From Bacteroidia bacterium (lineage in GTDB: Bacteria; Bacteroidota; Bacteroidia; Chitinophagales; UBA2359), in assembly GCA_030427245.1 (NCBI GenBank), contig JAUHXA010000005.1, positions 62,001 through 126,000 of the forward strand: DNA of 64,000 nt, in the 5' to 3' direction. Below the pieces are notes generated by a model, which was not told where the DNA came from, did not search any database, and saw only the letters and a list, made by a program, of their open reading frames with translations. Numbering within the stretch: position 1 is the first letter of the stretch; each line of letters opens with the position of its first letter. Below, one piece after another: positions 14,470-52,913 of this stretch. The translations under genes and the position numbers were made by a program.

Positions 14470-17352
14470 TCAAAACTCCAATATAAACTTCGCCAAGTTC
14501 GCCCCTTTCTTCAAGCCTATTTTTTTACGCAAACGATAGCGGGCAACCTCTACTCCTCTTATGGAAATTCCCATCAAGCTGGCAATTTCTTTTGTGCTTA
14601 AGTTCAGGCGCAAAAAAGCACAAAGTTTTTGCTCATTGGGAGTGAGGTCATGAAATTCATTGGTTAGTCGGATAGAAAAGTCGCTGTGTACTTGGTCAAA
14701 GTTGTGTTTGAATTGTTTCCAATCATCTTGCAGTCTGAGAGTTGTATCTATCTCTCGCACTATTTTTTCCAAAGCTTGTTTCGTTTCAGGACTCTTTCCT
14801 TTGCGCTTGACCTGCTTCAAGTTCTCCTTAATCCCTTCAATAAATTCATTTTTCACGACCAAATTCATCGTTGAAGCAGCTAACAAACTCTTCACATGAT
14901 TCAACTCATCAGACATTTTCTCTTCTTTCAATTTGTTTAGTTCCTGCTCTTTTTGCTGTTCAATTTCGATTAGTTTTTGTTGTTTCTCCAAGAGTAATCG
15001 TTTTTTGGCTTCTTCAATCTTTCTTTCCTTTTCTTTATAGCGGTTTCTTTGAAACCTAAAAGCCAAAAACAAAGACAAAAGAATGAGTATCAGATACAAT
15101 ACCTTTGCAACTAAACTTCTATGAAACGGTGGGTTTACCTTCAATTCCAATGCTGGACTACTGACTATCTCTCCAAAATAGTTTCGAGTTTGTACTGAAA
15201 GTTTGTATTTCCCTTCATTTAGATTGGTATATTCTTTTGTAGTAGCCGTTGTCCACTCTCCATACTCCTCGTCAAAACCCTCCAAAAAATACCGAAACTG
15301 CTGACTGTTTACATTGAACTGAAAAGATTCCACATAAAACTGCAATACCCTTGCTTGATAAGAATGTATGTTGATAGCAGTTTCTGTAATTTCTGACTCT
15401 GCTTCAAAGGGTTTTCGGGCATATAAAGTGCTGTCGCCAACCACACTAAAAACCCTGCTTACCACAAGCGGCTTCTTCAATGCTGGATAATCTTCCAATT
15501 CGGGTTGGTAATGTATAAAACCTTTATTGGCATTGAAGTAAATGCCATTGTTTACATTTACGGATATATTGAGCAGGTCATTGTTGAATGAATAGCGAAA
15601 TTGAAACAAAGAGGAAGGAACAAAGCTGTAATTATTGGCACTAACTCGCTTGAAAGAACCCACCAAATTTTCAGCAAATAGGTGTATGTTTTTTTGCTTG
15701 TCTTGTGTGATGAGATAAACTGTCTCATTCTCGATGTATTCAGAAAACAATTCTGCCTCCACAATTCTGTCTGTTTCTTGGTCGAGTTTGTACAGCCCTG
15801 CTTTTGTAGCTATATAAATTTCATCATCAATCCGACTTAGAATGATGTGTTCGTCAATTGATAAATCGTAATCATCTGATATTTTCTTTACACTTACCTC
15901 CGTCAATTTTTCTGATAATTGCAGTTGATACAGACCTTTGTAAAACTGCCCAACCCAAATTCTGCCTTGATGGTCTTCTTCAAAAAAACGACTCGATTCA
16001 TTGAAGCCCTTTATTTTTTGAACGCCTTCTAACTCTCTGTTTTCATTCAATTTAAAGAGGTACAATCCATCATAAGTTCCTCCAATCGCGAAGTCAGGAT
16101 GAGAACGTAATTGCTTCACCTGCCACAAACCTTCAGTGTCGACCAAACGTTTTGATTTGCCATTATTTAATAAAAACAAACCCGTATGATGTCCCGCATA
16201 TAAGTTCCCTGCAATTTTTTGCATACCATAAGCAGGGCCTTCCGTACCCTCCAAAAACACACTTTGAGTGGCGTTTTTTGCCAAGAAATAAATGCCATTT
16301 GAAGTGGTAAAATAAGTACCTATATCCGTTTCAAAGGTTTCGTAGCCACTTCCTTCTACACCTACTTTTCCTCCAATGAATTGTGTGGGGGAATTGATAT
16401 CTATAAGTGCCATTCCATTTTGCATTCCCACCCATAAATTCCCCGAATAATCTTGAAAAGTACGCAAGCAGGCATTCGTTTCTAAGCCATCTTCGGTAGT
16501 TATGTTTTCGATAGATTTTGTTTGGAAGTCGTACAAAAATAAACCTGAAGTTTGTGTAGATATAGCTATACGGGTATCAGAAAGTTGCAGTACATGATTG
16601 ACATATTTACCTCTTAAAATTTTGATTAAGTCGTCATAGCTTTCAGTAGCTTCAAAAGCAGCATTGAATTCGATTTGCCCCGAATTATAAAACAACAAAT
16701 GCCCTCCATTCTTTGCTAAGATGCCTGAAATAATCTGACCGCTTTGTTTTTGAGGATAAGTATTGGTGAGTTTGTCTTCTTTGATTTCAAAAAGTTTTCC
16801 TTGTGGATTTTGGGTAAAAATCTTCTTATCAACATAAAATGACCGATTCAATCCTCCGGGGTGATTGATTACTGCAATGGATTCGTTGTCATATATATAT
16901 ATTCCTCGAAAGGTGCAAAAGTAAACTTTGGAGTCTAGAAAGAAAATATCCCACACTTCGTCAAAATCTCTCGAATCTTTAGGTATCATCTCTACCAAAG
17001 AGGTGTACTTCCAGTTGTCTTCAAAAAAACCAAAGTCTCCCTGAGAACCAACATACAATCTATTAATTGTTTCGTCAAATGCCAAAGACCTCTTCTTTTT
17101 GCCATTTTTGGCATCATGTACCTGCCAGTCATTTCCATTGTAAGAAAGAACTCCTAAATTATTGGCTACAAAAATATCCATGTCTCTGTTTTGAGCAAAA
17201 TCTATGTTCTGAATTCCTGCCTTATATCCTGTAGGTGTAAAATTTTGGATAGGGTATTTACCAGAGGAACTGTAAGCTTGATGACCTAAAGAAAGCATAA
17301 GTACCAAACAAAGGAAATACTTGATGATGTAGTCAAAATCAATCATGAGCAA
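14470..17352 (-). CDS. Membrane-spanning one-component regulator (beta-propeller, Y_Y_Y, LuxR-type HTH)
   Basis: A 960-residue single-chain sensor-regulator. An N-terminal signal or anchor (YFLCLVLMLSLGHQAYS) is followed by about 600 residues of Reg_prop-type beta-propeller repeats (for example YSGNLWVGMQNGMALIDI). A Y_Y_Y domain (YFLEGFDEEYGEWTTA, NLNEGKYKLSVQTRN) sits just outside the membrane helix near residues 755-775 (VLYLILILLSLFLAFRF). Inside are a long coiled coil (about 780-860) and a C-terminal LuxR-like helix-turn-helix (LTPNEQKLCAFLRLNLSTKE, then IASLMGISIRGVEVARYRLRKK). No histidine kinase or receiver domain is present. It diverges from the glucan genes across 283 bases, so it most likely senses an oligosaccharide in the periplasm and controls that locus. 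Confidence 0.9.
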   Translation of the reverse strand: MLMIDFDYIIKYFLCLVLMLSLGHQAYSSSGKYPIQNFTPTGYKAGIQNIDFAQNRDMDIFVANNLGVLSYNGNDWQVHDAKNGKKKRSLAFDETINRLYVGSQGDFGFFEDNWKYTSLVEMIPKDSRDFDEVWDIFFLDSKVYFCTFRGIYIYDNESIAVINHPGGLNRSFYVDKKIFTQNPQGKLFEIKEDKLTNTYPQKQSGQIISGILAKNGGHLLFYNSGQIEFNAAFEATESYDDLIKILRGKYVNHVLQLSDTRIAISTQTSGLFLYDFQTKSIENITTEDGLETNACLRTFQDYSGNLWVGMQNGMALIDINSPTQFIGGKVGVEGSGYETFETDIGTYFTTSNGIYFLAKNATQSVFLEGTEGPAYGMQKIAGNLYAGHHTGLFLLNNGKSKRLVDTEGLWQVKQLRSHPDFAIGGTYDGLYLFKLNENRELEGVQKIKGFNESSRFFEEDHQGRIWVGQFYKGLYQLQLSEKLTEVSVKKISDDYDLSIDEHIILSRIDDEIYIATKAGLYKLDQETDRIVEAELFSEYIENETVYLITQDKQKNIHLFAENLVGSFKRVSANNYSFVPSSLFQFRYSFNNDLLNISVNVNNGIYFNANKGFIHYQPELEDYPALKKPLVVSRVFSVVGDSTLYARKPFEAESEITETAINIHSYQARVLQFYVESFQFNVNSQQFRYFLEGFDEEYGEWTTATTKEYTNLNEGKYKLSVQTRNYFGEIVSSPALELKVNPPFHRSLVAKVLYLILILLSLFLAFRFQRNRYKEKERKIEEAKKRLLLEKQQKLIEIEQQKEQELNKLKEEKMSDELNHVKSLLAASTMNLVVKNEFIEGIKENLKQVKRKGKSPETKQALEKIVREIDTTLRLQDDWKQFKHNFDQVHSDFSIRLTNEFHDLTPNEQKLCAFLRLNLSTKEIASLMGISIRGVEVARYRLRKKIGLKKGANLAKFILEF

Positions 17353-17635: not shown

Positions 17636-20600
17636 ATGAAACACTTCTACTTAACACTACTTCTTTCCTTATTTACAAGCTCCATTTTTGGACAAGCCGA
17701 CAAGGTTTCCGTCTCTCAAGAAAAGGATGGAATGAAGCTGGTTGTGAATGGAGAAAACTTCATGGTCAACGGTGTAAACTGGGGTTATGTTCCGATTGGT
17801 ACTAATTACTCCTATAGCCTATGGAAACAATCGGATGATGTCATTAGAGCCGCATTGGATGCCGAAATGTCCTTACTCAAAAACATGGGGGTAAATGCCA
17901 TTCGACAATATACTGGGATTCAGCCACGATGGATTAGATATATTTATGAGAAATACGGTATTTACACGATGCTCAATCACTCCTTTGGTCGTTATGGTTT
18001 GACGCTAAATGGTGTTTGGACACCTGTTACAGACTATAGAGATAAAGCAACACAAGAGTTATTGATGGATGAGGTTACTCAATTGGCTAAAGAATACAAC
18101 AATACTCCAGGTTTGCTACTGTATCTTTTGGGGAATGAGAACAACTATGGTCTATTTTGGGCAGGAGCAGAAACAGAAGATTTTCCTGACGAAGAGGATA
18201 AGAGAGATGCGGTGGGCGAAAAACGAGGTCGCCCGATGTACAAACTCATGAACGATGCAGCCGTAAAAATGAAGTCGATAGATTCTTCTCACCCCGTAGC
18301 TATCTGTAATGGAGATGTTTTGTTTATCGACATTATTGCAGAAGAGTGTAAGGATGTGGATATATATGGCACGAATATGTACCGTGGTGTGTCTTTTGGA
18401 GATGCCTTTAAAACTGTTAAAGAGAAGCTAAATAAGCCCATTCTGTTTACTGAATTTGGGGCAGATGCTTTCAATGCCATAGAAAATCAAGAAGACCAAC
18501 AGTCGCAAGCCTATTACATGGTGGGCAATTGGAAAGAGATATATGAGAATGCTGCTGGTTTGGGAAAAGCTGGCAATTCCATCGGAGGCTTTACATTTCA
18601 ATTCAGTGATGGATGGTGGAAATATGGGCAAACCACAAATCTAAGTGTCCACGACAACAATGCTTCTTGGGCAAATGGTGGCTATCAAAGTGATTTTGTA
18701 GAAGGTGAAAACAACATGAACGAAGAGTGGTTTGGCATCTGTGCCAAAGGAGAAACCAACGAGCGAGGTTTGTATCAACTGTATCCCCGTGCTGCTTATT
18801 ACGCATTGAAGGAAGCACATAAGGTTAGTCCTTACATGGAAGGCATTTCACTCGAAGGGGTTCAAAAACACTTTTCAGACATCAATCTTATGGAAGCGGT
18901 TCTCAAAGCAAGAGGAGACAAAGCATCTTTGGACAGTGAGCAGTCAAAAAAAGTGCGACTCAGTAATCTTAGAGCAGAATTTACAACATTTATTACAGGA
19001 GGTGATTTGACTTCAATACCCGAAAGTGATGATCCTACCACATTGAGCTATCCAAATCAACAGGGTTTTGACCACATGGAATCTTTTTATGTAGGTATTG
19101 AAGCCCAGCCAAGTGCGAGTGTGCGAGCAAATGTATCTTTCAACATTCTTGGAAATGTGGCTGAAAACCCCATCAATGAAGTTTTCTACGAAAACAGAGG
19201 TCATGTGCGTGAAGTGAATACTCCTCAAGGTACTTTGGCAATTCCTTCCCTTAATCGTGTACAGTTGTACCAAGCAGATATTACATGGAACGACAAAAAC
19301 TTCGACCTCAGAGGTTTCTATCGAACAGGTCATTACCATTGGGGCTATGAAGGAGATTTCTTTGGTTTGTATCCAGAAGCCAATTACGGTCCCAACATTG
19401 ACATCTACAATGGGGAAGCTCCTTTCGGTTTCGAGATTGATGGAAAGAAAGGCTTGCAAGGATTGAAGGTAGCTTTTGGTCCCGAACTTTGGTGGGGAGC
19501 AAATCCTGCAGTGTTAGTCAAATACAGTCGTCACATTGCAGGGATGGATGTGACAGGCATTTTCCATGAAGACATTGACGAGCCAGGTGCAGCAGTGAGC
19601 TCCTTTGCGATACCACAACCAAGAACCCGTAGAGCTACTCTTCATTTACAAAAGAAAATGGGTGCTTTGGGTATTGAACTTGGAGGTATTTGGGGAGGTG
19701 ACCCATTGGTGGGCAGAACCTTCCAAGTGATTGACGAAGAAATGGGCGTAGATTCTGAAATCTACCAAGATGTCATTCGACCAGAAGATACATGGGGCGG
19801 AAAAGCGAAAATTACCTTCGCTGCTGGTCCCATCAATTGGTATGCACAAGGTGCGGCAATTGGATTGGTCGCCTTTGGAGGAGCAGATTATACAAAGACT
19901 TATACAGGTTGGAGATTGAAGGACAGTGGTAGTGGAAACCAATACAACTTTTTGAGTGGTTTTACTTATACAATGGGTGATTTCCAAATTGCTCCAAACT
20001 TCTTGTGGCAAAAGCCAATTGTAGGACCGATTCCATTCGGGATAAATGCGCCAGGAAGACCTCGAAACATTGTAGATGACCCTTTTGTGGTAAGAGGAAA
20101 TCGAGAGACAATCGCAGGAGAAATATTGCTAACTTACGATCCAACTCCCGGAACTTGGATGTATGAGTGGGACAACGATATGACAGAAGATGCCAAGTTT
20201 GCAATGAATTTAGGCTTTGTCTATCGTCATTTGCCGACCACACAAGATGCGGCAATCGGTATTTTTGCAGATGGACGTACGACCTTCCCTTTCCCAGGTG
20301 CACCTCCAGCACAAGATTTATGGGAAATGAATTCACGCATTGTATCGAAAATCAATCCAAATTTGGGTTTAATTGCCAACTTATATGCAGGTAATGCACA
20401 AGCGAATGGAAGCGACCCAAGATTGATTGAGCGATTTGGAGGTGACTTGCGAATGATTTACAAAAAATTGATGCTAACAGGTATGGTTAAAGTGGACGAT
20501 TGGGGACCTTACGATTACCACCGTGACTTCAACTTGACCTTTCCACTGCAATTGACGGCGGATTTATCCACTACTATTGCCTCGCAGTCGTGGTTTAACT

Positions 20601-20779
20601 TACCCAGTTCAAAGCTTGGATTGCGTTATACTTGGCGTTCGATGGATCAATATTCGCCACGTTACTGCCCAACACAAATACCAGGCGTAGGCGGCTTGGT
20701 GTGTGACCCAACGGCACTTGGATTTGGTCAAGGCAATGAGTGGGAACTTAGAACATATTTGCATATTAACATCAAGTAA
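17636..20779 (+). CDS. Glycosidase-like TIM barrel fused to an outer-membrane beta-barrel-like domain
   Basis: A 1047-residue exported protein (signal peptide 1-20, ending SSIFGQ). Residues about 30-400 resemble the catalytic barrel of GH2/GH5-type enzymes (clan GH-A): FMVNGVNWG opens it, Glu168 in YLLGNENN fits the acid/base, and Glu273 in ILFTEFGAD fits the nucleophile. From about residue 470 the character changes to some 570 residues of alternating polar/aromatic strands (VRANVSFNILGNV, VQLYQADITWNDKNFDLRGF) ending in ELRTYLHINIK, as in outer-membrane barrels. Four cysteines or fewer occur in that half. A fused hydrolase and barrel would place the active site at the membrane pore. It is the first gene of the glucan locus and SusC/SusD genes are absent from the window. 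The barrel assignment is from strand pattern only. Confidence 0.7.
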   Translation: MKHFYLTLLLSLFTSSIFGQADKVSVSQEKDGMKLVVNGENFMVNGVNWGYVPIGTNYSYSLWKQSDDVIRAALDAEMSLLKNMGVNAIRQYTGIQPRWIRYIYEKYGIYTMLNHSFGRYGLTLNGVWTPVTDYRDKATQELLMDEVTQLAKEYNNTPGLLLYLLGNENNYGLFWAGAETEDFPDEEDKRDAVGEKRGRPMYKLMNDAAVKMKSIDSSHPVAICNGDVLFIDIIAEECKDVDIYGTNMYRGVSFGDAFKTVKEKLNKPILFTEFGADAFNAIENQEDQQSQAYYMVGNWKEIYENAAGLGKAGNSIGGFTFQFSDGWWKYGQTTNLSVHDNNASWANGGYQSDFVEGENNMNEEWFGICAKGETNERGLYQLYPRAAYYALKEAHKVSPYMEGISLEGVQKHFSDINLMEAVLKARGDKASLDSEQSKKVRLSNLRAEFTTFITGGDLTSIPESDDPTTLSYPNQQGFDHMESFYVGIEAQPSASVRANVSFNILGNVAENPINEVFYENRGHVREVNTPQGTLAIPSLNRVQLYQADITWNDKNFDLRGFYRTGHYHWGYEGDFFGLYPEANYGPNIDIYNGEAPFGFEIDGKKGLQGLKVAFGPELWWGANPAVLVKYSRHIAGMDVTGIFHEDIDEPGAAVSSFAIPQPRTRRATLHLQKKMGALGIELGGIWGGDPLVGRTFQVIDEEMGVDSEIYQDVIRPEDTWGGKAKITFAAGPINWYAQGAAIGLVAFGGADYTKTYTGWRLKDSGSGNQYNFLSGFTYTMGDFQIAPNFLWQKPIVGPIPFGINAPGRPRNIVDDPFVVRGNRETIAGEILLTYDPTPGTWMYEWDNDMTEDAKFAMNLGFVYRHLPTTQDAAIGIFADGRTTFPFPGAPPAQDLWEMNSRIVSKINPNLGLIANLYAGNAQANGSDPRLIERFGGDLRMIYKKLMLTGMVKVDDWGPYDYHRDFNLTFPLQLTADLSTTIASQSWFNLPSSKLGLRYTWRSMDQYSPRYCPTQIPGVGGLVCDPTALGFGQGNEWELRTYLHINIK

Positions 20780-20825: not shown

Positions 20826-20856
20826 TCGCAACGATATTTTGATTTGAAAATTATCG

Positions 20857-20933: not shown

Positions 20934-23762
20934 ATGAAAAATATAAACTTCAAAAATAGCTTAACGGCATTACTATCCATTTTACTCCTAATCAACTTTG
21001 GCTGCGCCAGAGACATTGACGAACTGGAACTCGCCACCTTTCCAACGGATGGAGATGTTTATCTTGACGGTTTCAGTGGAGGCTTGAACTATGCCGCCTT
21101 TGGTGGCTCAAAAGTCACGGCTTTTGATGTAGATACCGAAGTTAAGTATCAAGGAACATCTTCTATGAAGTTTGCCGTTCCCGATGCGGGCGATTCAGAA
21201 GGCGCTTATGCTGGAGGAGCTTATTATACCGCAACTGGACGTGACCTAAGTGGTTACGATGCGCTGACCTTTTGGGCTAAAGCCTCCAAAGCTGCAACGA
21301 TTGACGTAGTGGGTTTTGGGCTTGACTTAGAAGAATCCAGATATGAAACATCCATTAGCGGTTTGGCGGTTAATACCAACTGGAAAAAATACTACATACC
21401 GATTCCCGACCCTTCAAAATTGACTGAAGAAAGAGGCATGTTCTACTACTCCGAAGGACCAGAAGATGGAAAAGGCTATACTTTTTGGATTGATGAAGTA
21501 CAGTTTGAAAAATTGGGAACAATTGCCCATGCAGAACCTGCAATATTGGAGGGACAAGATCAAACTATTGCTGCCGAAGCAGGGGACGAATTGCCGATTG
21601 GAGGGACTTATTCTATTTTCAATCTTCCTACAGGGGTCAATCAAAGAGTGGAAGTAGCGCCTTCTTATTTTGATTTTACCTCCTCCAATACGAGCATCGC
21701 AACGGTAAGTTCGTACGGGGTGGTATCGGTGATTGACAGTGGAAGTGTGGTAATCAATGCCAAATTAGCGGGTATAGATGCGGTAGGTTCTTTGACGGTT
21801 GGTTCAAGAGGAGAGGCGATTCAACCTCTCGCTCCTGCACCTACTCCAACGCAAAGTCCAGATAGTGTGATTTCTTTGTTTAGCAATGCTTATACAAATG
21901 TAACCGTAGATACTTGGAATCCATTTTGGGAATTTTCAACAGCACTGAACTTTGACCTTCAAATAAATGGAGACGATGTAAAACAATACAAACAGCTCAA
22001 TTTTGTGGGGATTGAATTTGTCTCTCAGCAGATAGACGCAAGTGAAATGACACACTTTCACATAGATTTATGGACACCCGACCCAACTGATTTGCCCGCC
22101 GCCTTCAAAATTTTATTAGTGGATTTTGGAGCAGATGGAAATTTTGACGGAGGAGACGACAGTTCTCACGAACTTTCTTTTACCAGTCCGACCTTGAAGA
22201 CACAAGAATGGGTGAGTTTGGATATTCCATTATCGAATTTTGCGGGTTTGACCAATAGAAAAAACTTGGCGCAATTGGTGCTTTCTGGAGATATTGCCAA
22301 TGTCTATATTGACAATGTGTATTTCTACAAATCAGGAGAAACAGTAGTGACTCCAACGGGACCTACGACCGCAGCTCCAACCCCAAATCGTGATGCCTCT
22401 AAAGTCATTTCTATCTTTAGTGATGCTTATTCCAATCAAGCAAGCAATTTGAATCCAGATTGGGGACAAGCAACTTCGGTTTCAGAGGAGTCCATTGCAG
22501 GAAACAATACTCTGGTGTATAGAGGTTTGAATTACCAAGGACTTGAATTGGGAAGCAGTTTGGATGTTTCAAGCATGACCCATTTACACCTTGATTATTG
22601 GACTGCAAATTCTACCACTTTGAATACCTTCTTAATCAGTGATGGTCCTGTCGAAACGCCTTACACTATGCCTGTTCCTACCAGTGGGTGGAGCAGTATA
22701 GACATTCCTTTGAACAATTTTTCACCCGTAGATTTGGCAGATTTGATTCAGTTCAAGTTTGAAGGAAACGGAGACATTTACTTAGACAATATTTACTTCT
22801 ACAATGACGAAGGCGGAACAGGTGGAGGCGACAAGCCAACTACTGCTGCTCCAACTCCTACTCGTGATGCTGCAAATGTTGCTTCCGTATTTAGCGATGC
22901 TTATACCAATCTACCGATAGAAGATTACAATCCAAATTGGGGGCAAGCCACTGTGGTCACCGAAGAAATGATTGGAGGAAACAACACCTTGGTTTATACA
23001 GGTTTGAATTATCAAGGTCTGCAATTGAATGGTAGCCAAGATGTATCCTCCATGACCAATTTGCACCTCGACTATTGGACAAAGAACTCTACAGCTTTGG
23101 ATGTATTTTTAATCAGCAATGGACCGGTAGAAACACCTTATACACTGCCTGTTCCGACAAGTGGATGGAACAGCATAGACATTCCTTTGAGCAATTTCTC
23201 ACCCGTTGATTTGGCAGATTTGATTCAATTCAAATTTGAAGGAAACGGAGACATTTACTTAGACAACATCTATTTCTACAAAGATGGTGGTGGAACTGGC
23301 GGAGGCGATGCGCCAACCGTAGGTGCGCCAGAACCGACTCATGCTGCGGGCGATGTAATTGCCATATTCAGTGAGGCTTATGACATTGTTCCGATAGAAG
23401 ACTACAATCCAAATTGGGGACAAACTACCGTGGTTTCAGAACAAGCCATTGGAGGAAACAATACATTGGTTTATAAAGGCTTGAACTATCAAGGGCTGCA
23501 ATTGAATGGCAGTCAAGATGTATCTGGAATGGGCTTCTTGCACCTTGATTTTTGGACAGCCAATTCTTCTGCCCTCAATGTATTCCTTATCAGCCATGGT
23601 CCTGTCGAAACACCGTACGCTTTATCTGTTCCTACGAGTGGTTGGAGGAGCGTAGATATTCCATTATCCGAATTTTCTCCTGTTGATTTGACAGATTTGA
23701 TTCAATTCAAATTTGAAGGCAACGGAGATATTTATTTGGATAACATTTACTTTCATAAATAA
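20934..23762 (+). CDS. Repeat-rich surface glycan-binding lipoprotein
   Basis: The ATG at 20934 is preferred to the longer frame from 20844, since it follows the palindromic leader and starts a proper signal peptide (LLSILLLINFGC, lipidated Cys at 24). The 942-residue product begins with a jelly-roll-like CBM domain (YLDGFSGGLNYAAFGG, YTFWIDEVQFEKL), then a bacterial Ig-like BIG_2 domain (near 220-295, with VEVAPSYFDFTSSNTSIATV). Four homologous modules of about 145-180 residues follow, each with NPDWGQ- or NPNWGQ-like, NNTLVYKGLNYQGLQL and GDIYLDNIYFY blocks; the first is the most diverged. No catalytic residues are evident. It probably binds beta-glucan at the cell surface, taking the role of a SusD/E-type binding protein. 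The next gene carries four copies of the same module. Confidence 0.82.
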   Translation: MKNINFKNSLTALLSILLLINFGCARDIDELELATFPTDGDVYLDGFSGGLNYAAFGGSKVTAFDVDTEVKYQGTSSMKFAVPDAGDSEGAYAGGAYYTATGRDLSGYDALTFWAKASKAATIDVVGFGLDLEESRYETSISGLAVNTNWKKYYIPIPDPSKLTEERGMFYYSEGPEDGKGYTFWIDEVQFEKLGTIAHAEPAILEGQDQTIAAEAGDELPIGGTYSIFNLPTGVNQRVEVAPSYFDFTSSNTSIATVSSYGVVSVIDSGSVVINAKLAGIDAVGSLTVGSRGEAIQPLAPAPTPTQSPDSVISLFSNAYTNVTVDTWNPFWEFSTALNFDLQINGDDVKQYKQLNFVGIEFVSQQIDASEMTHFHIDLWTPDPTDLPAAFKILLVDFGADGNFDGGDDSSHELSFTSPTLKTQEWVSLDIPLSNFAGLTNRKNLAQLVLSGDIANVYIDNVYFYKSGETVVTPTGPTTAAPTPNRDASKVISIFSDAYSNQASNLNPDWGQATSVSEESIAGNNTLVYRGLNYQGLELGSSLDVSSMTHLHLDYWTANSTTLNTFLISDGPVETPYTMPVPTSGWSSIDIPLNNFSPVDLADLIQFKFEGNGDIYLDNIYFYNDEGGTGGGDKPTTAAPTPTRDAANVASVFSDAYTNLPIEDYNPNWGQATVVTEEMIGGNNTLVYTGLNYQGLQLNGSQDVSSMTNLHLDYWTKNSTALDVFLISNGPVETPYTLPVPTSGWNSIDIPLSNFSPVDLADLIQFKFEGNGDIYLDNIYFYKDGGGTGGGDAPTVGAPEPTHAAGDVIAIFSEAYDIVPIEDYNPNWGQTTVVSEQAIGGNNTLVYKGLNYQGLQLNGSQDVSGMGFLHLDFWTANSSALNVFLISHGPVETPYALSVPTSGWRSVDIPLSEFSPVDLTDLIQFKFEGNGDIYLDNIYFHK
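22374..23759 (+). repeat. Three close copies of the glycan-binding module in the lipoprotein gene
   Basis: Units begin at about 22374, 22848 and 23325 (period 474-477 bases); a diverged unit begins near 21831. Each unit encodes a proline/threonine linker (APTPT-like) and one beta-sandwich. Confidence 0.8.
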
Positions 23763-23794
23763 ACAAATTTATTTCTTTTATATAAAACAACAAA

Positions 23795-26524
23795 ATGAAA
23801 AACATAACTTTATTACTACTTATTTTAAACGTACATTTTGCCTTTTCGCAAAATTCACCTATTGACTTTGAGCCAGATGGCTTTGGAGCTTCTTGGACTT
23901 GGGCAACTTTTGAAGCCCCTGAAGGAGAAGAAAATCCTACTTTTAGTGTAGTCGCCAATCCTTCAATTGATGAAGTAAACGGTTCGGCTACCGTTGCAAA
24001 AGTGGATACACGATATGCTACTGATGCAAATTGGGGCAGTTCTGGATGTGAATCTATGCACGGCTCTGACATTGGAACTTTTACCATTACGCAAGCAAAC
24101 AAGGTTGTCAAAATGATGATTTACCAAGAAGGTTTTGCTGCTCCTGTTGCGCTCAAATTTGCGTCGCCAAGTGGTTTTGCCTTAGGTGAAATCGTTACAC
24201 AAAATACAGTTGCAGATGCATGGGTTGAGGTAGAATTCAATATGTCTGGATGGATAGGAGCACCCGAAACTCCCGACCAAATCATCTTTTTCCCAAGTTA
24301 TGCTCCAAGGTCAACGGGACACGTTGTTTATTTTGACAATGTTACCTTCAATGAAACTGGTTCGGGAACAGGTAGTGGTGATGGACCAATGGTTGCCGCA
24401 CCAACACCTACCCGTGATGCTGCCGATGTAAGGTCAGTATTCAGTGATACCTATGACAATGTACCTGTAGAAAACTTAAATCCTAACTGGGGACAAACCA
24501 CCATAGTTACTCAAGAAGTTATTGAAGGCAACAATACATTGGTATATAGTGGTTTGGATTACCAAGGTCTTCAATTGAATGGCACTTTGGATATATCAGG
24601 AATGACGCATTTACACTTAGATTATTGGACCGCCAATTCTACTGCTTTGGATGTATTCATTATCAGTCCAGGCCCTGTAGAAACACCTTCCGCACTTGCA
24701 GTTCCTACCTCTGGTTGGGCAAGCGTAGATATTCCATTGACTGCCTTTTCACCAGTGGATTTGGCAAATTTGATTCAGTTCAAATTTGTTGGCAATGGCG
24801 ATATTTACTTAGACAATATCTACTTCTACAAAGGTGAAGGCGGAACAGGTGGCGGTGATGCTCCGACTGTTGGCGCACCAGTACCTACTCGTGCTGCTGC
24901 CGATGTAATTTCGGTATTCAGTGATACTTATGACAATGCGCCAGTAGAAAACTTGAATCCAGATTGGGGACAGGCTACCGTAGTGACTGAGGAATCTATT
25001 GGAGGAAACAATACATTGGTCTATAAAGGTTTGGATTACCAAGGGCTTCAATTGGATGGTACTTTAGATGTATCAGGAATGACGCATTTACACTTGGATT
25101 ACTGGACGGCTAATTCTACTGCTTTGAATGTGTTCCTAATCAGCGACGGCCCTGTAGAAACACCTTCAGCACTTGCAGTTCCTACCTCTGGTTGGGCAAG
25201 CGTAGATATTCCATTGACTGCTTTTTCACCAGTTGATTTAGCCGCTTTGATTCAGTTCAAATTTGATGGTACTGGCGATATTTACTTAGACAATATCTAT
25301 TTCTACAAAGGTGAAGGAACTGGTGGTGACGATGTTCCAACTGTTGGTGCGCCAGTACCTACTCGTGCTGCTGCCGATGTAATTTCAGTATTCAGTGATA
25401 CTTATGACAATGTAGCAGTAGAAAATTTGAACCCAGATTGGGGGCAAACTACCGTAGTTACAGAAGAATCTATTGGCGGAAACAACACATTGGTTTATAA
25501 AGGCTTGGACTATCAAGGTCTTCAATTGGATGGTACTTTGGATGTATCAGGAATGACACATTTGCACTTGGATTATTGGACCGCCAATTCTACCGCTTTG
25601 AATGTGTACTTAATCAGCGATGGCCCTGTAGAAACACCTTCCGCACTTGCAGTTCCTACCTCTGGTTGGGCAAGCGTAGATATTCCATTGACCGCCTTTT
25701 CACCAGTTGATTTAGCCGCTTTGATTCAATTCAAATTTGATGGAACTGGCGATATTTACTTAGACAATATCTATTTCTACAAAGGTGAAGGAACTGGTGG
25801 TGACGATGTTCCAACTGTTGGTGCACCTGCACCTATTCACGCTTCTTCAGATGTTCTTTCAGTATTCAGTGATACTTATGACAATGTGCCAGTAGAAAAC
25901 TTGAATCCAGATTGGGGGCAAACTACTGTAGTAACAGAAGAAGCTATTGGAGGTGACAATGCATTGGTTTATAAAGGCTTGAACTATCAAGGGCTTCAAT
26001 TAGATGGTACTTTGGATGTATCAGGAATGACGCATTTACACTTGGATTACTGGACCGCCAATTCTACCGCTTTGAATGTGTACTTAATCAGCGATGGCCC
26101 TGTAGAAACACCTTCCGCACTTGCAGTTCCTACCTCTGGTTGGGCAAGCGTAGATATTCCATTGACCGCCTTTTCACCAGTTGATTTAGCCGCTTTGATT
26201 CAATTCAAATTTGATGGCAATGGCAACATTTACTTAGACAATATCTACTTCCATAGAAATGTGGTGGGTATCAACGATATTCCATTGGAGTCAATCGGTA
26301 CATTGTATCCTAACCCAACGCAAAGCATTTGGACAGTAAAAACCCAAAATGCAAAAATGTCAAAGATAGAAGTGTTTGATATGGCGGGTAGAAGTGTATT
26401 GTCAATGGCTACCGACGATGTTATTGAAGCGCAAATTGATGGTCGTAATTTGAACACAGGTTTGTACTTTGCTCAAATCACCACATCGGAAGGTGTAGTT
26501 AGCACGAAGCTGATTAAAGAGTAA
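23795..26524 (+). CDS. Repeat-rich glycan-binding protein with type A T9SS sorting domain
   Basis: A 909-residue protein starting 32 bases after the lipoprotein gene, very likely on the same transcript. The signal peptide (MKNITLLLLILNVHFAFSQ) has no lipobox. Residues about 20-190 are a jelly-roll domain distinct from the repeats (FEPDGFGASWTWATFE, VVYFDNVTFNE). Four modules of 158-159 residues follow, near-identical in their second half (PVETPSALAVPTSGWASVDI). The last 80 residues are a type A sorting domain (LYPNPTQSIWTVKT, IEVFDMAGRSVLSMA, NLNTGLYFAQITT). It would reach the surface through T9SS while its neighbour is anchored as a lipoprotein, so the same binding module is displayed by two routes. 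The carbohydrate specificity is inferred from the neighbouring beta-glucanases. Confidence 0.85.
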   Translation: MKNITLLLLILNVHFAFSQNSPIDFEPDGFGASWTWATFEAPEGEENPTFSVVANPSIDEVNGSATVAKVDTRYATDANWGSSGCESMHGSDIGTFTITQANKVVKMMIYQEGFAAPVALKFASPSGFALGEIVTQNTVADAWVEVEFNMSGWIGAPETPDQIIFFPSYAPRSTGHVVYFDNVTFNETGSGTGSGDGPMVAAPTPTRDAADVRSVFSDTYDNVPVENLNPNWGQTTIVTQEVIEGNNTLVYSGLDYQGLQLNGTLDISGMTHLHLDYWTANSTALDVFIISPGPVETPSALAVPTSGWASVDIPLTAFSPVDLANLIQFKFVGNGDIYLDNIYFYKGEGGTGGGDAPTVGAPVPTRAAADVISVFSDTYDNAPVENLNPDWGQATVVTEESIGGNNTLVYKGLDYQGLQLDGTLDVSGMTHLHLDYWTANSTALNVFLISDGPVETPSALAVPTSGWASVDIPLTAFSPVDLAALIQFKFDGTGDIYLDNIYFYKGEGTGGDDVPTVGAPVPTRAAADVISVFSDTYDNVAVENLNPDWGQTTVVTEESIGGNNTLVYKGLDYQGLQLDGTLDVSGMTHLHLDYWTANSTALNVYLISDGPVETPSALAVPTSGWASVDIPLTAFSPVDLAALIQFKFDGTGDIYLDNIYFYKGEGTGGDDVPTVGAPAPIHASSDVLSVFSDTYDNVPVENLNPDWGQTTVVTEEAIGGDNALVYKGLNYQGLQLDGTLDVSGMTHLHLDYWTANSTALNVYLISDGPVETPSALAVPTSGWASVDIPLTAFSPVDLAALIQFKFDGNGNIYLDNIYFHRNVVGINDIPLESIGTLYPNPTQSIWTVKTQNAKMSKIEVFDMAGRSVLSMATDDVIEAQIDGRNLNTGLYFAQITTSEGVVSTKLIKE
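24398..26258 (+). repeat. Four tandem glycan-binding module repeats
   Basis: Units start at 24398, 24875, 25349 and 25823 (periods 477, 474 and 474 bases). The last three share very long identical DNA stretches, pointing to recent tandem duplication or ongoing gene conversion. Confidence 0.9.
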
Positions 26525-26631: not shown

Positions 26632-27453
26632 ATGAAAAATACAAATTACATTCTATCAAAAACTGCATTGTTTTCCATTATTCTCTTCGGATTCTATGGA
26701 TGCACTGAAGACGCAGAAAACATAAATCGAAACTACCAACTGGTTTGGGAAGACGATTTCAATGGCGCAGCAGGAGAACTGCCAGATGCTTCAAAATGGG
26801 TGTTTGACATTGGCACCGATTGGGGCAATCAACAATTGGAGTACGATACAGACCGTGCCGAAAATGTTTCAACGGACGGAAACGGCAATTTAGCCATTGT
26901 AGCCAAACAAGAAAATTTTGGAGGACAACCTTTTACGTCTGGTCGCATCAAAACTCAAGGACTTTTTCAACAAACTTATGGACGCTTTGAAGCCCGCATG
27001 AAATTGCCGTGGGGACCTGGTATATGGCCCGCATTTTGGCTATTGGGTGCAAATTGTGAAACCGTAACTTGGCCTCAATGCGGTGAAATTGACATCATGG
27101 AATACCGTGGACAGCAGCCAACTTTAGCACATGGTTCAGTACACGGACCGGGTTATTCTGCTGGCGGAGCCATAACCAAATCCTATGCGCTTCAAAATGA
27201 CCGTTACGATTTGTCTTTCCATGTTTTCGCTATTGAGTGGGGAACAGATTACATTGACTATTATGTAGATGACAATTTATACCAGAGAATTACCCCTGCC
27301 GATGTTCCAGGAGAATGGGTCTATGACCATGATTTTTTCATTTTTTTAAACCTTGCAGTAGGTGGGAGTTATGTTGGATTCCCAACAGATGATACGAGAT
27401 TCCCACAAACATTGTTGGTCGACTATGTGCGGGTTTATAAAGAAGTGAATTAA
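26632..27453 (+). CDS. GH16 endo-beta-1,3-glucanase (laminarinase-like) lipoprotein
   Basis: A 273-residue enzyme with a lipoprotein signal (FSIILFGFYGC, Cys24). The catalytic motif GEIDIMEYRG has nucleophile Glu152 and acid/base Glu157 with the extra Met between them that marks laminarinase-type GH16 rather than lichenase. Substrate-cleft aromatics are in GPGIWPAFWLLGAN. The domain is of normal length, from YQLVWEDDFNG to VDYVRVYKE, with no extra binding modules; binding may be supplied by the two upstream repeat proteins. It would cut internal beta-1,3 bonds of laminarin-like glucans at the cell surface. A terminator separates it from the preceding gene, so it may have its own promoter. Confidence 0.94.
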   Translation: MKNTNYILSKTALFSIILFGFYGCTEDAENINRNYQLVWEDDFNGAAGELPDASKWVFDIGTDWGNQQLEYDTDRAENVSTDGNGNLAIVAKQENFGGQPFTSGRIKTQGLFQQTYGRFEARMKLPWGPGIWPAFWLLGANCETVTWPQCGEIDIMEYRGQQPTLAHGSVHGPGYSAGGAITKSYALQNDRYDLSFHVFAIEWGTDYIDYYVDDNLYQRITPADVPGEWVYDHDFFIFLNLAVGGSYVGFPTDDTRFPQTLLVDYVRVYKEVN

Positions 27454-27556: not shown

Positions 27557-30500
27557 ATGGAAGTGTTAGAGTCAGAAAAAAATACAGTGGATAGTTCGCA
27601 AGTTTCAATGAATCAGGTAATTATAGAAAACGAAAGCTACTACAAAATCTCGAACAACGATGAGATGGAGCCGTTTTTCATGAGTATAGTAAGCGACTCC
27701 AATCACTGGATGTTCATATCCAGTAATGGAGGATTGAGCGCAGGTAGAAAGGATTCAGAAAATGCTTTATTCCCTTATTATACCCACGATAAAATCACAG
27801 AATCTGCCGAAATTACGGGCAGCAAAAGTATTTTTTGGATAGACAAAGAGGACAAATCTCACCTTTGGGAACCCATTTCGGACAGGTACGACGGAATGTA
27901 TGCTGTCACTCGAAATCTATACAAGAGCGTGTACGGAAACAAAGTAATTTTTGAAGAAGTCAATCACGACCTTCAATTGACCTTTCGCTATCAGTGGAGT
28001 TCCAGTAATTTGTATGGTTTTGTGCGGAAAACAACGCTCATGAATCATGCTGAAAGTGAGGTCAAAATTTCGGTATTGGATGGCATTCAAAACATTGTGC
28101 CTTATGGCGTTCCGAGCTATACACAAAGCAACCTTAGCAATTTGGTGGATGCTTACAAAAGGAGTGAATTGCACAAAGCATCTGGTTTGGGAATTTATGC
28201 CCTTAGTGCGATTATTGTCGACAGAGCAGAACCGAGCGAAGCCCTCAAAGCCAATACAGTTTGGTCAATGGGTTTGGAAAATCCAAAATACCTCGTTTCT
28301 TCCCTTCAATTGAAGAACTTCCGCAAAGGAAAAACCATTCACGAAGAAACGGATGTCAAGGCAGAAAAAGGGGCATACTTCCTACATACAAAACTTTCCC
28401 TTCCCTCCAATACGGAAAAATCGTGGAGCATTGTCGCCAATATCAACCAAAATCACGCAGGAGTTGCCCAGCTTATCCAAACCATTCAGAAAGAGAAAAA
28501 TTTGGCTCAATTGGTGGAAGAAGACATCAATCTCGGAACGGAAAAGTTGATTCAACTAACTGCCGCTTCCGATGGGCTGCAATTGACAGCAGACGAGCAG
28601 AGAGATTCCCGACATTTCTCCAATACACTTTTCAACATCATGCGAGGGGGAATTTTCGACAACAACTATGAAATCGAAAAGTGGGATTTCACGAATTACC
28701 TTCAAAAGGCAAACAAAGAATCCTATGCAGCGCACGAAGAAACATTGCAGAAACTAAGCGATGTTTTCACTTTATCCCAACTAAAAGAGCTTGCCGACCA
28801 AAGTACAGACCCACACTTCAAACGCTTGTGTTTGGAGTACATGCCCTTGAAATTCAGCCGACGACATGGCGACCCGAGCCGACCGTGGAACAAATTTTCC
28901 ATCAATACCCGTAGCGAAGTTGATGGCTCAAAAATTTTGGACTATCAAGGAAATTGGAGAGATATTTTTCAAAATTGGGAAGCATTGGCTCATTCCTATC
29001 CCGATTTCATCGAGAGCATGATTCACAAATTTTTGAATGCCACTACTTTCGATGGCTACAATCCTTACAGAGTCACCAAAGACGGATTTGATTGGGAAGC
29101 CATCGAACCCGACGACCCGTGGTCCTATATTGGGTATTGGGGCGACCACCAAATCATCTATTTATTGAAGTTTTTGGAGTTTGTGGAGGAGTACAATCCG
29201 AGCAAACTGGAAAGCTATTTCAACCAAGATTTGTTTGTCTATGCCAACGTTCCCTACAAAATCAAGACTTACCAAGACATTCTAAAAAACTCCAAAGATA
29301 CCATTGATTTTGACGAGCATTTGGACACTGCAATACGAGAAAGACGGGAGGAAAAAGGAGCAGATGGTGCATTGCTGCAAAATAAAAGTGGAGCGATTTA
29401 CACCGTCAATTTTGTAGAAAAAATACTGGCAACCGTATTGGCGAAACTCTCCAATTTCATTCCCGAAGGCGGTATTTGGATGAATACCCAACGCCCCGAA
29501 TGGAACGATGCCAACAATGCCTTGGTCGGCAATGGTGTATCAATGGTGACGCTTTACTATTTGAGGCGGTTTTTGCATTTCTTCAAAAGCGTATTTGCGG
29601 CTTCAAAATTGGAGGAAGTGGAAATTTCCAAAGAATTGGCGATCTTCTTCCATAAAATTGTCGAGACCTTCAATACCCATAAAAGTTTGTTGTCAGCTTC
29701 AATCAATGACAGTCAACGCAAGGAAGTGTTGGATGGATTGGGAGAAGCAGGGAGTGATTTTAGATGGCAAATTTATGAAAATGCTTTTTCGGGTGAAAAG
29801 GAAACCCTTACTTTGGGCGATTTGAAGCACTTCGTGGAGATTTCCCTTCAATACTTGGAACATTCGATTGAAGCAAATCGAAGAAGCGATGATTTGTACC
29901 ATGCCTATAATTTGGTGACAATTGAAAGCGAAACAGAGGCTTCTATTTCTTATTTGAGCGAAATGTTGGAAGGGCAAGTAGCCGTATTGAGTGCGGGTTA
30001 TTTATCCTCCGAAGAAGCAGTAAAGGTGTTGGACGGATTGAAAAACAGCGCATTGTTTCGAGCAGACCAATACAGTTACATTCTTTACCCCAACAAAGAT
30101 TTGCCTGGGTTTATTGAAAAAAATACCATTCCAGAAAAATCTGTTCTTCAATCTGAACTCTTGCAGAACTTGGTTTTGGAAGGCAATGTTCAAGTCGTCG
30201 AAAAAGACATCAATGGTGCTTATCACTTCAATGGCAGCTTCAAAAATGCCGATGATTTGAACCTTGCTTTGGAGCAGCTTGCAGAAAATGGTCATGCTGA
30301 TTTGGTCGAAAAAGACAAAGATTTGGTGCTTCAAATTTTTGAAGAAGTCTTCAATCACAAAGCTTTTACAGGGAGGTCGGGTACTTTCTTTGGCTACGAA
30401 GGATTGGGTTCTATCTATTGGCACATGGTTTCTAAGCTGCAATTGGCGGTGTTGGAATGTTGTCTAAAAGCGGTGGAGGAAAAGGCAAGTGACGAGATAG

Positions 30501-31018
30501 TCGGTAGATTACTGGAGCATTACTACGAAATCAATGAAGGTATTGGTGTTCACAAATCGCCCGAACTCTACGGCGCATTTCCTACCGACCCTTATTCGCA
30601 TACACCTGCGGGTAGGGGCGCACAACAGCCTGGCATGACGGGACAAGTGAAGGAAGATATTTTGAGCCGATTTGGAGAGTTGGGAGTTTTTATCAAAAAG
30701 GGAAAACTTTGCTTCAATCCTTGTTTACTGAGGAAAGACGAATTTTTAACCGACAGCAAAGTGTTTGAATATGTGGATGTTCATTCATCGCACAAGCAAT
30801 TGCAGGTAGGTGCCGATTCGCTTTGTTTTACTTTTTGTCAAGTGCCGATAGTGTATCAGTTGGCGGAATCAAACGGATTGAAGGTGATTTGTAAAGATGA
30901 TACAGTAAAGAAATTTGAATCATTGAGTTTGGATGTGGCAACGAGTAAGGAAGTGTTTGAAAGAACGGGGGAGGTTGTTCGGGTTGTTGTTGGAGTGAAA
31001 GAAAATGATTTGAGGTAA
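27557..31018 (+). CDS. Cytosolic beta-glucan phosphorylase, GH149-like
   Basis: A 1153-residue protein without a signal peptide. Its size, its (alpha/alpha)6-type central region and the block RPEWNDANNALVGNG, with Asp651 where GH94-like phosphorylases carry the general acid, fit the GH94/GH149/GH161 group. The C-terminal THTPAG-like block (SHTPAGRGAQQPGMTGQVKE) also has the look of a phosphate-site loop region of that group. GH149 enzymes phosphorolyse beta-1,3-gluco-oligosaccharides to glucose 1-phosphate, which would fit the GH16/GH17/GH30 neighbours and save ATP. I assign GH149 from length and context; GH161 is the alternative. The next feature downstream is a repeat-flanked transposase gene. 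Confidence 0.65.
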   Translation: MEVLESEKNTVDSSQVSMNQVIIENESYYKISNNDEMEPFFMSIVSDSNHWMFISSNGGLSAGRKDSENALFPYYTHDKITESAEITGSKSIFWIDKEDKSHLWEPISDRYDGMYAVTRNLYKSVYGNKVIFEEVNHDLQLTFRYQWSSSNLYGFVRKTTLMNHAESEVKISVLDGIQNIVPYGVPSYTQSNLSNLVDAYKRSELHKASGLGIYALSAIIVDRAEPSEALKANTVWSMGLENPKYLVSSLQLKNFRKGKTIHEETDVKAEKGAYFLHTKLSLPSNTEKSWSIVANINQNHAGVAQLIQTIQKEKNLAQLVEEDINLGTEKLIQLTAASDGLQLTADEQRDSRHFSNTLFNIMRGGIFDNNYEIEKWDFTNYLQKANKESYAAHEETLQKLSDVFTLSQLKELADQSTDPHFKRLCLEYMPLKFSRRHGDPSRPWNKFSINTRSEVDGSKILDYQGNWRDIFQNWEALAHSYPDFIESMIHKFLNATTFDGYNPYRVTKDGFDWEAIEPDDPWSYIGYWGDHQIIYLLKFLEFVEEYNPSKLESYFNQDLFVYANVPYKIKTYQDILKNSKDTIDFDEHLDTAIRERREEKGADGALLQNKSGAIYTVNFVEKILATVLAKLSNFIPEGGIWMNTQRPEWNDANNALVGNGVSMVTLYYLRRFLHFFKSVFAASKLEEVEISKELAIFFHKIVETFNTHKSLLSASINDSQRKEVLDGLGEAGSDFRWQIYENAFSGEKETLTLGDLKHFVEISLQYLEHSIEANRRSDDLYHAYNLVTIESETEASISYLSEMLEGQVAVLSAGYLSSEEAVKVLDGLKNSALFRADQYSYILYPNKDLPGFIEKNTIPEKSVLQSELLQNLVLEGNVQVVEKDINGAYHFNGSFKNADDLNLALEQLAENGHADLVEKDKDLVLQIFEEVFNHKAFTGRSGTFFGYEGLGSIYWHMVSKLQLAVLECCLKAVEEKASDEIVGRLLEHYYEINEGIGVHKSPELYGAFPTDPYSHTPAGRGAQQPGMTGQVKEDILSRFGELGVFIKKGKLCFNPCLLRKDEFLTDSKVFEYVDVHSSHKQLQVGADSLCFTFCQVPIVYQLAESNGLKVICKDDTVKKFESLSLDVATSKEVFERTGEVVRVVVGVKENDLR

Positions 31019-31028
31019 GGAGATAAAA

Positions 31029-31378
31029 AGGTGACATCTCCGAAAGAATGTAAGAGGTGTCATCTTTTTATCGTGCTTGGTCATGGGAAAATCGGCTTCG
31101 GGATTAGACCTTCTGCGCTTCGCTTCGAAGATGTCACCTCAAAACCTTGCGAAAAGAGCGAATATAAGGAAGTGTCATCTTTTTACTGTGCTTGGTCATG
31201 GAGTCGGCTTCGAGATTTACACCTTCTGCGCTTCGCTGCGAAGATGTCACCTCGAAACCTTGCAAAAAGAGCGAATATAAGGAGGTGTCATCTTTTTACC
31301 GTGCTTGGTCATGGGAAAATCGGCTTCGGGATTAGACCTTCTGCGCTTCGCTTCGAAGATGTCACCTCAAAACCTTGC
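31029..31378. repeat. Cluster of three REP-like palindromic units upstream of the transposase
   Basis: GTGTCATC-headed units begin at 31057, 31172 and 31285 (periods 115 and 113 bases). Each holds a CTTCG...CGAAG hairpin and ends in GATGTCACCTC. The cluster starts with GGTGACATCTCCGAAAG (31030), which is close to an inverted copy of the unit ends (CTTCGAAGATGTCACC). The open frame that runs through the units into the transposase gene is not coding. Confidence 0.85.
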
Positions 31379-31381
31379 TTA

Positions 31382-32071
31382 ATGACACTTGGAAATCGTA
31401 ATGAAATGAATAAATATCTTGCAGAATTACATGCTGATGAATGTTATCATGTTTACAATAGAACGAATAATAAAGAGTTGCTTTTCAAAGATGATGAAGA
31501 TAGAAAATTATTTTTAACAAAGTACGCAGAATATTTATTGCCTTATGTGGAAACACTTGTTTATTGTCTGCTAGGAAATCATTTTCATTTCATGGTGAAA
31601 GTAAAAAGTATTGAACAAATTATAAAGGCGGTAGAGGAAGAAAAAGAGCAGAACAGAACTGTTCCTCAAAGAAGATTATTAGATGCAGAACTTGATTGTA
31701 GGTCAGCACATATAGTTTTGAAAAGTCAATTCACAAGATTGTTTACGTCTTATGCCATGAGGTTCAATAAAAAGTACAAACGAGAGGGAAACTTATTTAA
31801 TCGCCCTTTTAAGCGAGTTAAGGTTGAAAAAGAAAACCATTATAGTTATTTGATTTACTATATTCATGCGAATACCAAAAGGCATGGGATTAAAAGTGAT
31901 TTTAAAAACTATAAGTGGAATTCTTATAGGGCTATGTTGACTTCTAAAGCAACTAATGTTAATAGAGAAGTGGTCATTGATTGGTTTGGAGGTAAGTCAG
32001 CATTTGTAGAGTTTCACAATCAATTGGATGTTACTTTATCTGAAATTGACTATTTAATTATTGAAGATTAA
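31382..32071 (+). CDS. REP-associated tyrosine transposase (RAYT, Y1/HUH family)
   Basis: A 229-residue HUH single-strand transposase. ECYHVYNRTNNKELLF is the typical start of the IS200-like REP family; the HUH motif is NHFHFMV (His67 and His69) and the likely nucleophile is Tyr124 in LFTSYAMRFNKKYKREGNLF. An in-frame ATG at 31406 is an equally good start. The longer frame from 31031 is rejected because it translates the repeats. RAYT proteins bind and process REP hairpins; here three related units lie upstream and one downstream, so enzyme and substrate are together. It sits inside the glucan locus between the phosphorylase and GH17 genes. Confidence 0.9.
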   Translation: MTLGNRNEMNKYLAELHADECYHVYNRTNNKELLFKDDEDRKLFLTKYAEYLLPYVETLVYCLLGNHFHFMVKVKSIEQIIKAVEEEKEQNRTVPQRRLLDAELDCRSAHIVLKSQFTRLFTSYAMRFNKKYKREGNLFNRPFKRVKVEKENHYSYLIYYIHANTKRHGIKSDFKNYKWNSYRAMLTSKATNVNREVVIDWFGGKSAFVEFHNQLDVTLSEIDYLIIED

Positions 32072-36615: not shown

Positions 36616-37503
36616 ATGTCTTATAGAATAGAAAAACAGTTTTCCCTAAGAGGAATTGATTACAGTGGAAAAACCGACAAAGAGCTTAGTGACTTGTTCC
36701 ACAAAGTATTAGAAAGTGGAATGCATGGCTTATGCTATAGTGCTTATGAAGAAGGTCAAAAACCAGGCGATATTTTGACGGAGGCTCAAGTCAAAAAACG
36801 TATGAAAATCATTGCACCCTATACAAAATGGATTCGTTCTTTTTCTTGTATTGAAGGGAATGAGTTAATCCCTAAAATTGCTAAGGAATACGGTTTAAAG
36901 ACGCTTGTTGGTGCATGGCTGGGTAAAGATGAATCATTAAATGAGAAAGAAATAGAAGGGTTGATAGACTTGGCTAATCAAGGCTATGTTGATATTGCAG
37001 CAGTAGGCAATGAAGTGTTGTATAGAAACGATTTGAAGGAAGAAGAACTTTTAGGGTTTATTCATCGAGTGAAAAAAGCAATTCCCAAAAATATTCAGGT
37101 AGGTTATGTAGATGCCTATTATGAATTTACTGAGCATCCAAGAATTACGGAAGCCTGCGATGTTATCTTGGCCAATTGTTATCCATTTTGGGAAGGTTGT
37201 GACCTTGACTATTCGCTGTTGTATATGAAACAAATGTTTAATCAAGCACTTAACGCTGCGAATGGTAAAAAAGTTATTGTGACAGAAACAGGCTGGCCTA
37301 GTGAGGGAAGTAACCTTCAAGCCGCACATCCATCCAAAGAAAATGCCATTAAATATTTCATCAATAGTCAAAAGTGGTCAAAAGAAGATGATATAGATAT
37401 GTTTTACTTTACATCTTTCGATGAATCTTGGAAGATAGGGGATGAAGGAGATGTAGGTGCTCATTGGGGATTGTGGAATAAAGAAGAAAATATCAAATAT
37501 TGA
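36616..37503 (+). CDS. Cytosolic GH17-type glucosidase/glucanase
   Basis: A 295-residue protein without a signal peptide or lipobox. GH17 residues are present: Glu133 in AAVGNEVLYR and Glu224 in VTETGWPSEG. The barrel starts at LRGIDYSGK and the protein ends shortly after AHWGLWNKEENIKY, so there is little beyond the catalytic domain. A cytoplasmic place, between two GPH transporters, implies that it trims imported beta-1,3-gluco-oligosaccharides, alongside the phosphorylase. It starts 38 bases after the first transporter and ends before a strong terminator, so it closes that transcript. Confidence 0.9.
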   Translation: MSYRIEKQFSLRGIDYSGKTDKELSDLFHKVLESGMHGLCYSAYEEGQKPGDILTEAQVKKRMKIIAPYTKWIRSFSCIEGNELIPKIAKEYGLKTLVGAWLGKDESLNEKEIEGLIDLANQGYVDIAAVGNEVLYRNDLKEEELLGFIHRVKKAIPKNIQVGYVDAYYEFTEHPRITEACDVILANCYPFWEGCDLDYSLLYMKQMFNQALNAANGKKVIVTETGWPSEGSNLQAAHPSKENAIKYFINSQKWSKEDDIDMFYFTSFDESWKIGDEGDVGAHWGLWNKEENIKY

Positions 37504-52858: not shown

Positions 52859-52913
52859 AGGAAGCAGGAAGCAGGAAGCAGGAAGCAGGAAGCAGGAAGC
52901 AGGAAGCAGGAAG
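52859..52913. repeat. Heptanucleotide tandem repeat
   Basis: AGGAAGC repeated almost eight times without error (seven full GAAGCAG units at 52861-52909 plus partial ends). It is noncoding and lies between two genes; its copy number is likely to vary by slippage. Confidence 0.95.

Follow-up and report, generated by a model that had tools for sequence, protein, structure and literature searches.

Two adjacent ORFs of a Bacteroidia bacterium contain tandem copies of one module type (positions 21831-26258 of the 64,000-nucleotide stretch of DNA analysed here, hereafter the window), in one case as part of a lipoprotein and in the other as part of a T9SS cargo protein. We predict that the two module arrays probably provide an SGBP-B-like, multivalent capture of laminarin at the cell surface. 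An earlier note on this DNA had proposed that a lipoprotein and a T9SS cargo protein share one module, and the analysis supports this.

Two proteins with one module type

The SGBP-B-like module lipoprotein is encoded at 20934-23762 on the forward strand, as are the domains, modules and glucan-locus genes given with coordinates below unless stated otherwise. The ATG at 20934 was taken as its start, in place of the TTG at 20844 of the ORF list, because the lipobox signal begins there. The lipobox, GC-ARDIDEL, was read as a motif straight from the sequence, with the Cys codon at 21003-21005; among the 67 relatives with a readable lipobox, 53 have R at +2 after the cysteine and 43 have D or E at +3. 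The motif is that of a surface lipoprotein, from which we infer the location of the protein. Its CBM_11-like N-terminal domain (21054-21428; Pfam PF03425, 28.3 bits against a cut-off of 27) is followed by a weak Big_2 match and the modules LP1 (21831-22331), LP2 (22374-22847), LP3 (22848-23324) and LP4 (23325-23759). LP2 to LP4 are typical copies, whereas LP1 is an ancient, diverged type, which shares only 35-37% of its amino acids with the other modules and does not contain the NPDWGQ and NNTLVYKG blocks. Of the eight modules with shared blocks described previously, the count of four per protein holds, but these two blocks are present in seven modules only, and LP1 rules out that all eight are alike.

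The T9SS cargo protein (23795-26524) begins with a signal-like start and consists of an N-domain (23849-24364), the modules T1 (24398-24874), T2 (24875-25348), T3 (25349-25822) and T4 (25823-26258), and a T9SS type A sorting tail (26303-26515), which is also recognised by Pfam Por_Secre_tail. TIGR04183 matches the C-terminus, residues 837-909 of 909, with 53.5 bits against a cut-off of 23, and this assigns the protein to T9SS type A. Judged by these signals, it is likely that the module takes two surface routes, as a lipoprotein and as a T9SS cargo, although the latter could instead be released; T9SS type A tails are found on both anchored and released proteins. A Pfam search with the N-domain gave no match. 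Its relatives are found at the start of further module proteins of the T9SS type and at the end of some lipoproteins; in the N-domain tree, the window's copy forms a long branch, with 47% identity to a lipoprotein domain of locus L035, and the tree is compatible both with an existing T9SS gene that was re-armed and with a newly assembled one.

A conserved beta-1,3-glucan locus

The lipoprotein gene is part of a locus for beta-1,3-glucan that recurs in related genomes. Upstream lie a sensor-regulator with Reg_prop, Y_Y_Y and a LuxR-like C-terminus (14470-17352, reverse strand) and a gene for a GH158/GH157-like TIM barrel fused to a predicted outer-membrane beta-barrel (17636-20779, hereafter the GH-barrel gene). 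The T9SS gene is followed by genes for a GH16 glucanase with a visible lipobox (26632-27453; Pfam PF00722), a GH149 beta-1,3-oligoglucan phosphorylase (27557-31018), a GH17 (32247-33530), a GH30 (33600-35102), an MFS sugar transporter (35147-36577), a second GH17-type protein (36616-37503) and another MFS protein. The GH149 product matches the solved beta-1,3-oligosaccharide phosphorylase 6hq6 with 1735.7 bits over 5-1153. The beta-1,3-glucan setting implied earlier is supported by GH149, GH16, GH17 and GH30 nearby and by fusions of the module to GH81 and GH16, and the bacterium probably eats laminarin, an algal storage sugar.

The best matches elsewhere come mostly from Saprospiraceae MAGs. 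Among the best 80 of 433 related loci, the same lipoprotein type is present in 74, the GH-barrel gene lies directly upstream of it in all 66 testable loci, and GH16 lies downstream in 70 of 71; the 74 lipoprotein loci, some on short contigs, contain GH149 (62), MFS (58), GH30 (50) and GH17 (49). MFS ORFs of 760-790 residues were also seen and may be transporter-GH17 fusions such as that reported in PMC6246565. Among 247 genomes of the phylum, the module is found in 44 and GH149 in 45, with both in 29 against 8 expected (Fisher 9.5e-16, phylogeny ignored). The two lie within 12 kb of each other in 26 of 28 genomes with both, the window's own left out, and 15 of the 44 module genomes have no GH149. 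Matches to the GH-barrel query were obtained in 31 of the 247 genomes, 27 of which have the module and 30 GH149 (phylogeny again ignored). By reading, 26 of the 31 matches are full-length, and 25 of these 26 genomes have the module; shorter matches covering the enzyme half alone are seen in G141, G160 and G279.

Judging from its model, we take the product of the GH-barrel gene to combine a hydrolase and an outer-membrane barrel in one chain. Conservation extends along the whole protein (60-72% identity between the window's protein and 23 others aligned), with the TIM barrel at about residues 20-415 and 22 long amphipathic strands at 441-1046, whose side-to-side alternation in hydrophobicity exceeds that of all of 2000 shuffles. 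The model is of moderate quality (mean pLDDT 71.5, pTM 0.50), the barrel half being modelled only within the whole protein. The TIM barrel matches GH158 and GH157 laminarinases with Z 27.2 and 27.1, with GH2 and GH5 enzymes also at 25-27, and among the Foldseek matches listed for the model one TonB-receptor chain stands at rank 50. In the open-access literature, we found no matching paper on the hydrolase-barrel fusion or on laminarin-binding CBMs; work on new laminarin-binding CBMs exists.

No match to the SusC/SusD of contig C84 of the same genome was found in the 64-kb window, which does contain the GH16, GH17 and GH30 of a laminarin PUL. Since no SusC/SusD was found beside the lipoprotein in this search, we refer to it as SGBP-like and not as a canonical SGBP. 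On C84 itself (66000-84000; locus L012), a lipoprotein with three modules is encoded after SusC-SusD and before GH16, and this third module protein of the genome occupies the usual place of an SGBP.

Origin of the T9SS array

In a tree of 70 modules, T1-T4 and LP2-LP4 of the window form a group of seven (support 99/86) deep within the lipoprotein modules, and the T9SS modules of loci L119-L122 are placed in the other half of the tree with the first-module type (100/98). Forcing the T9SS modules of the window and of L119-L122 into one common lineage was rejected (AU p 5.46e-12). The nesting of T1-T4 with LP2-LP4 and this rejection together indicate that, in this lineage, the array of the T9SS gene derives from the neighbouring lipoprotein gene or is converted by it. 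Within the flanks covered, six of the 80 best-matching loci (of 433) encode a T9SS-tailed module protein. In L119, L120 and L121, such a protein is encoded at the far end of the operon, and L122 is cut by the contig end; L121 matches L067, one of the six loci, in length and coordinates.

The T9SS array could instead act like an adhesin or, once released, as a scavenger, attaching to algal particles or cell walls, with the lipoprotein alone serving uptake. We regard this as possible but doubtful. The use of type A tails by anchored as well as released proteins would allow it, and both a T9SS-tailed module protein on a contig other than that of the laminarin locus (G012 C109) and the joining of the wide module family to a subtilase are in its favour. 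However, the T9SS gene of the window is part of the laminarin operon and carries modules derived from those of the lipoprotein, and L119, L120 and L121 also have their T9SS-tailed module protein in the operon. We prefer laminarin capture by both arrays.

Copy number and divergence of the modules

The 68 complete lipoproteins have one (4), two (25), three (29), four (6), five (3) or six (1) modules, some of the single-module proteins appearing frameshifted or split; the window's own number was read from a 7.58-Mb draft genome of 187 contigs. A FastTree phylogeny built from 258 modules places 77 lipoprotein first modules in one clade (support 0.975), which indicates that the plan of one first module plus a variable number of later ones is old. 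The later modules form a clade of their own in 15 of the 54 proteins with two or more of them, which is a sign of lineage-specific expansion or homogenisation, and modules 2 and 3 of many Saprospiraceae loci each follow their own orthologous line. Copy number, which had been suggested to be still changing, thus varies between species, but the only recent event seen is a single 167-bp tract, described below.

Tandem Repeats Finder assigned a score of 2853, above chance, to 24398-26251. The typical modules (LP2-LP4 and T1-T4) are 69-98% identical at the protein level. Based on Nei-Gojobori counts, pairs among T1-T4, which are 83-93% identical in DNA, have a dS of 0.28-0.57 and a dN of 0.011-0.113 (dN/dS about 0.03-0.2), whereas dS is 1.25-1.42 for pairs among LP2-LP4, 0.91-1.89 for typical pairs across the two proteins and 1.7-4.3, near saturation, for pairs involving LP1. 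Equal synonymous divergence of all copies, named beforehand as evidence against recent duplication, is not what we see: 0.28-0.57 for the T pairs stands against 0.9-1.9 for the other typical pairs. The T9SS array is the youngest, young beside the lipoprotein array, yet not freshly made. The last three copies, T2-T4, had been described as nearly identical in DNA over hundreds of bases, which does not hold, as their identities are 92.6, 90.5 and 88.1%. T2 and T3 differ by 31 synonymous and 4 non-synonymous changes (dS 0.35, dN 0.011), so that most of the divergence is old and selected against at the protein level. With dN far below dS, the copies are kept functional, each under purifying selection.

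One could argue that the arrays are stalks: a single binding site would be carried outward by copies that mostly act as spacers, and the number of repeats would adjust length and not valency. A copy number of 1-6 without loss of the locus and an old, different first module would agree with this, but it is improbable, as conserved aromatic and polar residues are retained alike in the typical copies, which have a low dN.

The sole long identical tract in the T9SS array is a 167-bp run shared by T3 (25577-25743) and T4 (26051-26217), which was reached in 0 of 100,000 permutations that preserve codon position; it marks a duplication or conversion event that was both local and recent. The longest identical runs of T1-T3 and T1-T4 are 71 bp (T1-T3, p 0.0005), to which local constraint could contribute, and those of T2-T3 and T2-T4 are 50 bp and not significant (p 0.33 and 0.086). 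That strong codon and protein constraint accounts for the repeat identity, with no recent duplication or conversion, is hardly likely: 31 of the 35 T2-T3 changes are synonymous and some stretches are conserved across all T copies, but the 167-bp tract exceeds all permutations and the T copies form one clade.

Fold of the module and comparison with known systems

The repeat module has no family of its own in Pfam or NCBIfam, both of which were scanned. T2 gave no Pfam family at all, and it is only the lipoprotein N-domain that passes CBM_11. A weak similarity to Pfam SGBP_B_XBD was seen, with 26.2 bits, just under the cut-off of 26.4, for the L012 protein and a single match at E 0.01 or lower among 20 modules. 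Searches of PDB sequences with narrow and wide module profiles gave no clear relative, the best being CBM11 at a marginal E of 0.017-0.019; neither the solved SGBPs nor 8qx6 were matched in sequence.

The AlphaFold2 model of T2, built from 11 sequences, is well folded (mean pLDDT 86.9) and nearly all beta. Foldseek placed a CBM11 of mixed-linkage glucan first (6r3m, E 1.6e-6), followed by CBM8, CBM30 and CBM29. With VIA-align, a xanthanase domain (Z 12.4) and CBM11 6r31 (Z 12.1, rmsd 2.9 over 132) scored highest, CBM30 and an ExoP domain both reached Z 11.7, and the laminarin-binding CBM 8qx6 was weaker (Z 9.8, rmsd 2.8 over 123). As modelled, the module is a CBM11-like beta-sandwich of about 145 residues, and, with T2 as the modelled copy, the lipoprotein reads as a string of beta-sandwich CBM-like domains. 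Since many CBM families score close together, the fold provides the superfamily and not the ligand; the comparison was made with one modelled module, and families absent from the second-look fold lists may still match.

Among 13 module proteins scanned, GH81 is present in one (L130), GH16 in one (L147), CBM4_9 in three, PKD-type domains in three and in the GH16-fused one, a subtilase in one (L129) and starch-type CBM48/CBM20 matches in one (L138). The fusions to a subtilase and to starch-type CBMs argue against a single ligand throughout the wide family. L130, L131 and L135 each encode a protein of about 1350 amino acids that contains three modules and ends in a T9SS-like sequence; GH81 was found in L130, which the other two resemble. 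A member of the wide module family is joined to the subtilase in L129:2-3826, and L128:1286-7714 codes for a 2143-residue protein with a repeated T9SS N-domain and two clear modules.

The module proteins are a many-armed variant of the SGBP kind and not a new kind. As a predicted outer-membrane lipoprotein with a string of beta-sandwich domains in a beta-glucan locus, the module lipoprotein resembles the SGBP-B of beta-glucan PULs, for instance BfSGBP-B of Bacteroides fluxus, described as a laminarin SGBP-B (PMC11345257), and the mixed-linkage glucan SGBP of Bacteroides ovatus (PMC8612152). It differs in the variable array of near-copies, the T9SS sibling and the GH-barrel gene upstream in place of SusC/SusD. 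In fold and description, it is also similar to CHU_1279 of Cytophaga hutchinsonii, an SGBP-B-like protein whose CBM11-like domain is closest to 6R3M and may, according to its authors, represent a new CBM family; CHU_1279 differs in having two domains and cellulose as its ligand (PMC12016534). CBM11 of Lic26A-Cel5E, the closest fold and the marginal profile match, shares only 16-19% identity with the module, and CBM X584 (PDB 8qx6), a laminarin binder by its title, is likewise a beta-sandwich, though at Z 9.8 and without a sequence match. GH16, GH17, GH30, GH149, MFS, a LuxR-type regulator and a 'GH2' gene upstream also occur, taken together, in the laminarin PULs of Muricauda and Formosa and in the variant B of such PULs (PMC6298971, PMC13188888, PMC6246565). 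Unlike these, the window has no SusC/SusD match, and the 'GH2-like' gene is here a GH158/157-like domain plus barrel, set beside the Muricauda GH2 by description. The GH-barrel gene is possibly what laminarin-PUL annotation labels 'GH2'.

A model for laminarin capture

We propose that the module, strung as one plus three copies on an outer-membrane lipoprotein and as four copies on the T9SS cargo, would catch laminarin, a beta-1,3-glucan, at the surface for the GH16 and GH17 enzymes and the GH158-like barrel protein. GH30 and GH149 would complete the breakdown, and the MFS carriers would import the products. Several weak tandem sites might provide avidity for a soluble polymer. The copies would expand and contract by tandem duplication, and conversion would homogenise them in part, acting inside single genes and, in the window's lineage, also between the two adjacent genes. 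More tentatively, we speculate that the lipoprotein is the dedicated partner of the GH-barrel protein in a novel outer-membrane unit, in which laminarin would be cut and held and its fragments moved through the outer membrane with no SusC/SusD involved; the array would be a tunable capture arm and the T9SS copy would derive from a transfer of modules between the genes. Repeats, rates, trees, synteny and co-occurrence are observations and the fold is a model, while surface display, ligand, avidity, division of labour and cooperation with the barrel enzyme are predicted from them.

Laminarin is a major marine carbon store. The widespread, unnamed module with its natural arrays of 1-6 copies offers a ready series for relating valency to the capture of soluble polymers, and its strict link to a fused hydrolase and barrel suggests a route across the outer membrane, which annotation labels such as 'GH2' may hide.

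Some minor observations were made alongside. A search of plasmids gave two distant records. Between GH149 and GH17 lies a transposase-like ORF (31031-32071), possibly of the REP-associated type, and on its 5' side are 2.9 copies of a 113-bp palindromic unit (31046-31378), whose 23-base core occurs at 13 genome sites with up to 2 mismatches, compared with 0 for the control. A perfect (AGGAAGC)x7.9 repeat is found at 52859-52913.
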